A stretch of 64,000 nt of DNA, from contig BQJC01000002.1 of NCBI GenBank assembly GCA_021604505.1, positions 186,001 to 250,000 on the forward strand. The letters run 5' to 3'. Of this stretch, positions 45,715 through 47,248 are shown in pieces (position 1 is the first letter of the stretch; the number at the start of each line of letters is the position of its first letter). This DNA comes from Nitrospinaceae bacterium (GTDB lineage Bacteria > Nitrospinota > Nitrospinia > Nitrospinales > VA-1). Position numbers and translations under genes: made by a program. The notes below the pieces were generated by a model, which saw only the letters and a program-made list of their open reading frames with translations, did no database searches and was not told the origin of the DNA.

Positions 45715-46158
45715 ATGCAAGCCGCACGGCAAACGGTCGCCGAAATTCAATCCGTCCTGGATAAATTTCGTGAAGGGTATGGAAATAAAGACATGGACAT
45801 TTTACTGAGTCTTTTTGATTCAGATCCGAATGTCCTGGTCATCGGCACCGGCGAAGACGAAAAGCGAACCGGTCTCGAAGAAATCAAAATTCAGTTTGAG
45901 CGTGATTTTAACCAATCGGATCAATTGATCGTGGAGTTTAAAAATGTTTCCGTATCGCAGCTGGGGTCGGTGTGCTGGGTCGCCGGAGACACACATGTTT
46001 ACTTCACCGCGCAGGAAAAGGCCATGCATGTGTTTCTTCGATTCACCGGGGTTTTAGCCAACCGCGAAGGCCACTGGCTGTTCGTTCAAACCCACTTTTC
46101 TCTGCCTTTTTCAGACTCTGCCGGAGACGGCTCCCCCGCTGGCGAATTGGAAGATTAA
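45715..46158 (+). CDS. SnoaL/DUF4440-type NTF2-fold protein
   Basis: About 147 residues with GGAGAGG 4 bp before the ATG. One NTF2-like domain: VLDKFREGYGNKDMDILLSL, then IGTGEDEKRTGLEEIKIQFE and the terminal HWLFVQTHFSLPF. Such domains bind small molecules or act as steroid-isomerase-like enzymes; no catalytic dyad is certain. No signal peptide. Confidence 0.85.
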   Translation: MQAARQTVAEIQSVLDKFREGYGNKDMDILLSLFDSDPNVLVIGTGEDEKRTGLEEIKIQFERDFNQSDQLIVEFKNVSVSQLGSVCWVAGDTHVYFTAQEKAMHVFLRFTGVLANREGHWLFVQTHFSLPFSDSAGDGSPAGELED

Positions 46159-46192: not shown

Positions 46193-46224
46193 AAAAAAAA
46201 GGCCCTGCTCGTTTGAGCAGGGCC
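46193..46224 (-). terminator. Rho-independent terminator of the 46.2-46.4 kb small RNA
   Basis: On the minus strand: a perfect 10-bp stem GGCCCTGCTC / GAGCAGGGCC with a 4-nt AAAC loop, followed by eight T. It also ends any read-through from the AsmA-like gene upstream. The convergent SnoaL-like gene ends at 46158. Confidence 0.9.
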
Positions 46225-46256
46225 AACCAACAGTAAGGAGCTTCCGGTCATCGGGA

Positions 46257-46301
46257 TTAACCGATGCCTCCGGAAGCTCCCCTTATACTATGGTTAGACA
46301 A
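46257..46301 (-). CDS. Possible 14-codon ORF inside the small RNA
   Basis: TTG start at the ideal distance from a GAAAGGAGGTGATCC ribosome site; it would encode MSNHSIRGASGGIG. Its 3' half lies in the strong stem-loop, so ribosome passage could alter the fold. It may be a leader-type peptide or a chance frame. Confidence 0.3.
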   Translation of the reverse strand: MSNHSIRGASGGIG

Positions 46302-46376
46302 GGGATCACCTCCTTTCGATCAGGGGGTGCACATCCGCACTCAAGGCTCCCCTGGTTCCCCAAGTGCAATTCTTTT

Positions 46377-46405
46377 CTTATATAGAATGAAGGAAAACTT
46401 TTCAA
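46377..46405 (-). promoter_or_regulatory. Sigma-70 promoter of the candidate small RNA
   Basis: Minus strand: TTGAAA (46405-46400), 17-bp spacer, TATAAG (46382-46377). Each box is one base from consensus. A start near 46370 fits the downstream structure. Confidence 0.65.
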
Positions 46406-46444
46406 ATGTCAAAACTCTTTAACTGCGGTTTACAGGGATTAAAT

Positions 46445-47248
46445 TTATTTTCCCATTAACCCTTTGACGGCATTTCCAAGTCCTTTGGCATTTTTCTCAA
46501 GGATATCGGACCCTCCTTTTTCCAGCAATTCCTTAACCTCTGCCGCTCCCTCCACATTTTCGAGTACTTTACCCAGATCGAGGGTTCTGACGGATCCTTC
46601 CGCGGCGGCATTGACCGCAACCATCAGCTTTTTGATCACCTCGGCGGGAGAAGCGCCGCCTTTATCTCTGCCTATTCCTGAAAGCTGAACTCTGGGGAGT
46701 TTGACGCTCAATTTCTTCCCCTTCAACCCGACGGCGCTGACATTGATCTTGCCGTCGCGGATAATGAGACTGTCTATGATGAGTTTTTTCCCATTCTTGT
46801 TTGAGCTCGACGGTTTTTCCTCATCGGAACTTTTTTCCCCGCCGCCCCCTGCCTGCTGGGCAACATTTTTCTGCAAAGCATCCAGGTTGCTTCCGGTAGC
46901 CCCAATTTCATAAGTGATATCGGGTCCGGCAATGAGGATTTCTTTGATCAGTACCGTGTCCTTTGTGATCGTTCCCACATCCAGCGTCATACTGACTTCC
47001 CCCAGCCGAAATGCGGAATCGGATTCAAACCCCTTGGGATTTCCAACCTTCAACCCCCGCAAGGTTCCCTTGCCGGAAGTCGCTGAAATTTTCGTCTCGT
47101 CCAAAGTCACCTCAGCCTGCAAGGCGTCGGAGCCATATTTTTCAACCGCCATGGTGACCAGCGAATCCATGGAAAAAAGCAGGAAAATCGCCAAAAAACC
47201 CGTCAAGACCACGACCATAGCGACCGTGACCCACATTGAACGTTTCAT
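46445..47248 (-). CDS. AsmA/DUF748-like membrane-anchored protein
   Basis: About 267 residues. One N-terminal membrane helix (WVTVAMVVVLTGFLAIFLLF) and a periplasmic beta-rich part with VTLDETKISATSGKGTLRGL, KGFESDSAFRLGEVSMTLDV and IDSLIIRDGKINVSA, which are the repeats of AsmA-family proteins. A low-complexity linker (QQAGGGGEKSSDEEKPSSSN) interrupts it. The family helps outer-membrane lipid homeostasis; this short member is not assigned. Confidence 0.82.
   Translation of the reverse strand: MKRSMWVTVAMVVVLTGFLAIFLLFSMDSLVTMAVEKYGSDALQAEVTLDETKISATSGKGTLRGLKVGNPKGFESDSAFRLGEVSMTLDVGTITKDTVLIKEILIAGPDITYEIGATGSNLDALQKNVAQQAGGGGEKSSDEEKPSSSNKNGKKLIIDSLIIRDGKINVSAVGLKGKKLSVKLPRVQLSGIGRDKGGASPAEVIKKLMVAVNAAAEGSVRTLDLGKVLENVEGAAEVKELLEKGGSDILEKNAKGLGNAVKGLMGK

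Follow-up and report, generated by a model that had tools for sequence, protein, structure and literature searches.

The question raised by this locus is what a small RNA gene standing by itself between two convergent protein genes is for. The window, by which we mean the whole 64,000-nucleotide stretch of a Nitrospinaceae genome that was analyzed, had earlier been read from its letters alone as containing a discrete structured RNA of unknown family. The underlying observation proved real: the minus strand holds an RNA gene at about 46377-46193, with a predicted product of about 185 nt. That product is discrete, structured, and outside Rfam cut-offs, as proposed. It is neither simply noncoding nor wholly without relatives, since it contains a complement of the 16S rRNA 3' end and a conserved micro-ORF and shows a localized, subthreshold resemblance to CC2171 (RF01867). 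Three features, a pseudoknot, the 16S complement, and the micro-ORF, are additional to the earlier reading (Table 1). The best reading overall, which we hold with moderate confidence, is that the gene is single-copy and stands alone and that its RNA acts by engaging ribosomes.

Table 1. Features of the RNA gene and its surroundings, in window coordinates
Feature	Position	Strand	Basis or remark
-35 box TTGACA	46407..46412	-	sequence; also found upstream of most relatives
Probable -10 box CATTCT	46384..46389	-	sequence; equivalents in relatives; 17-base spacer
Predicted RNA, about 185 nt	46193..46377	-	start inferred from the -10 box, end from the T-run
S1, 5' strand	46358..46369	-	covariation
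S2, 5' strand CAGGGG, in the S1 loop	46349..46354	-	covariation, consensus
S1, 3' strand	46335..46346	-	covariation
S2, 3' strand CCCCTG	46321..46326	-	covariation; ends 3 bases before the 16S-tail complement
GAAAGGAGGTGATCC, extended Shine-Dalgarno sequence, complement of the 16S rRNA 3' end	46303..46317	-	sequence, 16S comparison
Micro-ORF, TTG start, 14 codons (MSNHSIRGASGGIG) and TAA	46257..46301	-	40-row alignment
GGGGAGCTTCC	46272..46282	-	alternative, mutually exclusive partners: Shine-Dalgarno sequence or 46247-46237
Hairpin H2, 11-bp stem (46280-46270/46247-46237) enclosing a 6-bp stem (46266-46261/46254-46249)	46237..46280	-	fold and alignment
Intrinsic terminator, 10-bp stem with loop of 4 (46224-46201) and T8 (46200-46193)	46193..46224	-	alignment consensus, terminator scan
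SnoaL-like gene	45715-46158	+	convergent neighbor
DUF748-like protein gene	46445-47248	-	convergent neighbor

The strand follows from the terminator: it occupies the low end of the unit, and its run of T is read on the minus strand. Its stem length and T-run are as the sequence-only reading had them, and among three terminator-like sites in the scanned stretch (1.1 expected from shuffles), the only one with 10 pairs is that of the RNA. The promoter boxes and spacer named in that reading can likewise be read in the sequence, lying outside the interval that it gave for the RNA (46193-46371). The -35 box is a perfect consensus and the -10 box matches the consensus at 3 of 6 positions, so poor a match that a scan requiring at least 4 of 6 at -10 found no promoter at the RNA gene. 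The same block, TTGACA followed by CATTCT, CAATCT, or TACAAT, recurs upstream of most relatives, which supports the assignment. The gap between converging genes was also correctly placed. The earlier claim that no common housekeeping RNA is involved agrees with the Rfam search, which returned nothing over a curated cut-off except tRNA elsewhere; no family passed its own cut-off at the RNA gene. Low-threshold candidates, including PyrR, SorX, ncS025, NsiR1, and others, were all below cut-off and were rejected, and those with listed coordinates end at the terminator hairpin.

Relatives are common in the window's own order. A 261-base BLASTN query matched 40 of 60 genomes, the window's own included, a few of the matches being short and not the RNA itself (e.g., in G002). 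Our alignment has 40 rows, made up of the window copy, 29 BLASTN loci, L036, and nine further regions. A covariance model, R1, built from the 3' part of the RNA in 37 rows, has matches in 50 Nitrospinota genomes out of 77, counting the window's own; of the 31 good genomes, 26 are matched. All 50 belong to the order of the window: families f1 to f4 had matches in 50 of 64 genomes and families f5 to f9 in 0 of 13. Two genomes, G019 and G260, have two strong R1 places each, and L134, also from Nitrospinota, has the same RNA sequence as L019. Neighboring genes recur in relatives of the same genus or of closely allied genera and no further, and the places are otherwise unrelated, so the RNA is a stand-alone unit rather than the leader of one gene.

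Ahead of the micro-ORF lies an extended Shine-Dalgarno (SD) sequence whose GAAAGGAGGUGAUCC is perfectly complementary to the very end of 16S rRNA. In one genome of Nitrospinota and one of Bosea, the corresponding GGATCACCTCCTTTC lies where the small-subunit rRNA match ends, and the 16S tail was read from those two, the window's assembly containing no such site besides the RNA's own. The 15-mer complement occurs once in the 3.64-Mb genome; elsewhere in that genome no site has one mismatch, and 12 further sites have exactly two. In the 40 rows it is perfect in 18, differs at one base in 8, and differs at two in 14, mostly toward the 5' end, in a count to which larger departures are invisible because the row-placing step tolerated few mismatches. 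The full duplex with the 16S tail has a computed energy of -28.0 kcal/mol, compared with -11.6 for AAGGAGGU.

The RNA is also predicted to be strongly folded. The minus-strand fold has a z score of -7.2, with none of 200 shuffles equally stable; a plus-strand fold over 46193-46371 (z -8.25; 0/200 shuffles equally stable) was rejected as belonging to the wrong strand. The nested stems described earlier are present and form hairpin H2. In the alignment, GGGGAGCUUCC can pair with the SD sequence in 97.6% of cells, with 13 double changes at one pair, that of the base preceding the start codon. Its alternative partner is the downstream GGAAGCUCC, with 89.6% of cells paired and weak covariation, and H2 covaries little beyond shuffles. 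One alignment, A6, contained 37 of the 40 rows, with L027, L033, and L167 excluded for divergent 3' ends; in these f2 relatives the 3' ends are altered, and two have no clear terminator within the aligned stretch. The SD-masking hairpin is predicted in all 40 rows, and H2 is more stable than it in 39. With 40 to 50 downstream bases, computed SD accessibility is 0.16, compared with 0.33 to 0.35 for shuffles; over 40 to 60 bases the values are 0.16 to 0.21 and 0.31 to 0.35, and accessibility is later at background level (25 of the 40 rows). Sequence by sequence, the masking energy is unexceptional (median p of 0.27; p ≤0.05 in 1 of 40 rows). A timing switch between the SD hairpin and H2 in Nitrospinota is plausible, not proven, on this modeling. 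In the window's own RNA, a nested fold computed without the pseudoknot pairs the SD sequence with the S2 strand. That fold also joins the start region to the segment preceding the terminator, a long-range pairing looked for as a trait of CC2171 RNAs and absent from the 40-row consensus.

Outside Nitrospinota, the computed course of SD masking differs. In Rhodobacterales it is the opposite, with the SD sequence open until the end and masked in the finished RNA, and no clear course emerged from the computed accessibility of groups other than these two. This masking logic is thus not common to all groups, which counts against the ribosome-engaging reading. Complementarity to the SD sequence inside other loci reached p ≤0.05 in 25 of 117 by contiguous helices and in 17 of 117 by duplexfold, a weak excess and no rule. 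As a separate observation, Rhodobacterales loci including L051, L054, and L045 have a strong anti-SD segment near the 3' end that would mask the SD sequence when the RNA is complete.

One alternative is a base-pairing small RNA gated by translation, in which translating the micro-ORF would remodel or protect the molecule and another part would bind target mRNAs. Two mutually exclusive hairpins sharing one segment (46282-46272), a stop codon inside the apical loop of H2, and a stand-alone, terminator-ended gene would all suit such a regulator. We nevertheless consider it unlikely, as the sole conserved single-stranded segment is the 16S complement itself, and the linker from H2 to the terminator drifts freely among the aligned relatives.

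The micro-ORF begins one base 3' of the 16S complement. Start codons in the 40 rows are TTG in 30, ATG in 9, and GTG in 1, all 6 to 7 bases past GGAGG. Every row has a stop, with TAA, TGA, and TAG interchanging, and the ORF is 14 codons long in 31 rows, 15 in 7, and 18 or 19 in the others. Six rows carry 3-base insertions that stay in frame; in two (L028 and L172) indels break the frame, and a short ORF is still there. Counted over related pairs with equal ORF length, which are not independent of one another, synonymous codon changes make up 74 of 434 in Nitrospinota (0.247 expected from random single changes), 139 of 1,153 in sphingomonads (0.264 expected), 42 of 313 in Rhodobacterales (0.267 expected), and 26 of 101 in a 25-codon Rhizobiales set (0.252 expected). 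None of the four groups has the excess of synonymous over replacement changes by which a coding peptide would be recognized. By sequence comparison, then, start, frame, and stop are shown to be kept while the predicted amino acids drift.

This pattern weighs on the possibility that the transcript is a very short mRNA whose active product is the 14-residue peptide (MSNHSIRGASGGIG and its kin). A strong SD sequence followed by a micro-ORF would fit a plain short mRNA too, start and stop are present in all 40 Nitrospinota rows and in all 119 readable loci listed from other groups (below), and the 3-base insertions respect the frame. Such a peptide is still improbable in our estimation, because beyond the missing synonymous excess the lone conserved tripeptide, Gly-Ala-Ser, is encoded by GGAGCUUCC and is explained by base pairing, and because the peptides of different orders differ, with only the start MS common to them among the loci listed. 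With start and stop kept and the peptide free to change, the RNA probably works through ribosome engagement, not through a protein.

Upstream of the SD sequence, comparative analysis shows an H-type pseudoknot at the predicted 5' end, in which the strand just upstream of the SD sequence would be tied up. Up to 12 pairs of stem S1 enclose GCCAGGGGA, a loop that in turn pairs with the CCCCTG just 5' of the SD sequence. S1 paired poorly when counted over all 40 rows, one clade being offset by two columns, and the rows were split into sets of 28 (A4) and 10 (A5), with L012 and L015 in neither and inspected by eye. In A4, 80.8% of cells are paired, and double changes occur at 14 of 19 pairs, compared with 8.5 in shuffles (0/500 reach this value); pairing falls to 35 to 58% when the partners are displaced by one to three columns. 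The three outermost pairs of S1 are weak, being paired in 12 to 14 of the 28 rows. In A5, from two genera and with the register shifted by two, 94.7% of cells are paired and double changes occur in 6 of 17 pairs. In L012 and L015, S1 still encloses the same loop, and loop 3 contains extra sequence; if these two are counted, the pseudoknot is present in 40 of 40 rows. Their loop-3 insertion, some 105 bases ahead of the SD sequence, is large and itself capable of forming hairpins. An automatic test of the 5' stem (16.5 own pairs; permutations mean 13.0, SD 0.47, maximum 14.7 of 5,000) was superseded because it chose the wrong strands in several rows. Covariation, a check that the sequence-only reading had named, is clear in an element absent from its own description.

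Translational switches are known in which an H-type pseudoknot adjoins the ribosome binding site, and the pseudoknot of this RNA could in principle sense a ligand or protein and control translation of the ORF and thereby of a neighboring gene. The surroundings make such a cis-acting switch quite improbable. In the window the next downstream gene is convergent, a terminator comes directly after, and neighbors vary between genera. Genes flanking the other relatives occur in all four orientations (37, 30, 24, and 17 of 108 listed loci), a tally of neighbor variety, for which alone these gene clusters were used, as some of their GC-rich frames are spurious. Least credible of all is no gene, only a chance inverted repeat beside a terminator of the flanking genes. 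The terminator is indeed placed where the gene at 46445-47248 could use it, but 50 of 77 genomes keep the element, with covariation and in unrelated surroundings.

We are thus left with high confidence in the predicted anatomy, namely a pseudoknot, a 15-base 16S complement, a micro-ORF ending in the H2 loop, and a terminator, and with a ribosome-engaging RNA as the preferred account of it. In this proposal, the pseudoknot would serve as a 5' cap and, by tying up the adjacent upstream strand, keep the 16S complement open. The RNA would capture 30S subunits by forming a duplex of unusual length with the 16S tail, and initiation followed by a short run to the nearby stop would free the ribosome again. 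In Nitrospinota, the ORF-internal segment may pair with the SD sequence during synthesis and later be pulled off by the later-made arm of H2; such late release would mean that ribosomes mainly meet finished molecules. The function would then be translation as such, the peptide being irrelevant, and the RNA would occupy or sense free initiating ribosomes as a titrating or ribosome-sensing regulator. Ribosome binding and titration are both deduced from sequence features, and titration as the specific mechanism is possible but somewhat less secure than ribosome engagement in general.

The same arrangement extends beyond Nitrospinota. A scan with the pattern GAAAGGAGGTGATCCNNTGTCT found at least 120 loci (L045-L164), and those listed carry alphaproteobacterial or "Proteobacteria" labels, except L049 from Gemmatimonadetes and L134. 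All 119 readable listed loci start with ATG, GTG, or TTG and never with CTG; L055 was incomplete and unread. ORF length clusters by order, at 14 codons in Bradyrhizobium, 18 in both sphingomonads and Rhodobacterales, and mostly 23 to 25 in Rhizobiales. In each of eight genomes the pattern is present in a single copy and its reverse gives no match; within the class to which a Bosea genome belongs, 21 of the 190 members match the pattern exactly, again once per genome. In Azospirillum loci L104, L144, and L158, the 16S complement and an ATGTCT start precede an ORF of 57 to 59 codons with a signal peptide-like beginning. Six IMG/VR contigs (L174-L179) also contain the pattern: five resemble host-type copies, three bear a Bradyrhizobium-type RNA, perhaps in host flanks of proviruses, and L178 has a longer phage-like ORF after the same start.

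The nearest Rfam family to the window RNA is CC2171, at 30.1 bits against a gathering cut-off of 75. None of the 60 genomes of the Nitrospinota search, own included, reached that cut-off, the Nitrospinota maximum being 41.1 bits. Four of 18 tested loci did reach it, from Rhizobium, Bosea, Brevundimonas, and Roseiarcus, with a micro-ORF at the equivalent place. Like this Caulobacter small RNA, the window RNA has GAAAGGAGGUGAUCC followed by UGUCU with a possible start codon; the conserved AUCGAAAGGAGGUGAUCC ... UGUCU segment of CC2171 is present in the alignment, and both are small and predicted to end at an intrinsic terminator as stand-alone units. It has, moreover, the traits of the CC2171-like superfamily proposed from this analysis, a 16S complement, a start 1 to 2 bases on, a short ORF, and a single copy. 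In contrast to CC2171, it has another peptide and another 3' half, and its 5' pseudoknot has no counterpart seen by inspection upstream of the SD sequence in CC2171-like loci. From these comparisons, the window RNA is probably a distant CC2171 relative, a pseudoknotted variant outside Rfam's own cut-off. Among the 18 loci tested, sphingomonad, Rhodobacterales, and Bradyrhizobium versions also fell below the RF01867 cut-off, and the family is therefore probably far wider than its record.

More tentatively, we propose an ancient, widespread, single-copy class whose function is being translated, of which CC2171 is merely the first-named corner. Such a class would span Nitrospinota, Alphaproteobacteria, and at least one member of Gemmatimonadota; in it, a complete complement of the 16S tail would load ribosomes onto a micro-ORF indifferent to its peptide, and the RNA would thereby report or limit free initiating ribosomes. 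If ribosomes are engaged as we infer, several phyla keep one dedicated RNA aimed at the tail of 16S rRNA, with a coding frame maintained for translation and not for its product. This would offer a direct handle on the sensing or buffering of free ribosomes in Nitrospinota and in model Alphaproteobacteria. It also cautions that conservation of a micro-ORF need not imply a functional peptide.

In the literature searched, the combination of a 16S complement and a micro-ORF was found described nowhere, a search on Nitrospina small RNAs returned nothing relevant, and no description of CC2171 function was found, the original Caulobacter array study being outside its scope. CC2171 is named in one table line of the Rfam 15 paper, and a Mesorhizobium table gives MH_s33 as RF01867 with a sequence length of 215 (PMC5596092). 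The portions consulted of a Caulobacter map report translation of two previously predicted noncoding RNAs (PMC4117421), and in those of a Sinorhizobium small-proteome study, 33% of 54 new translated small ORFs lie on annotated small RNAs (PMC10117765). A Bradyrhizobium small-ORF study does not treat an RNA of this type in the parts examined (PMC5082802).

Two known systems resemble the window RNA in placing a 14- to 15-codon ORF on a small RNA: rnTrpL/peTrpL of Sinorhizobium (14 amino acids) and Spot 42 (15 amino acids). Their peptides are described as functional in the portions consulted of the Sinorhizobium study (PMC10117765), whereas the predicted peptide of the window RNA has no sign of selection, and its SD sequence, unlike theirs, is a full complement of the 16S tail. 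Pairing between SD and anti-SD sequences that reaches toward the start codon is also described in a consulted part of work on extended SD sites in Staphylococcus aureus (PMC13009471). Those sites add two pairs in ordinary mRNA; in the window RNA, by contrast, 15 complementary bases run to within one base of the start of a micro-ORF.
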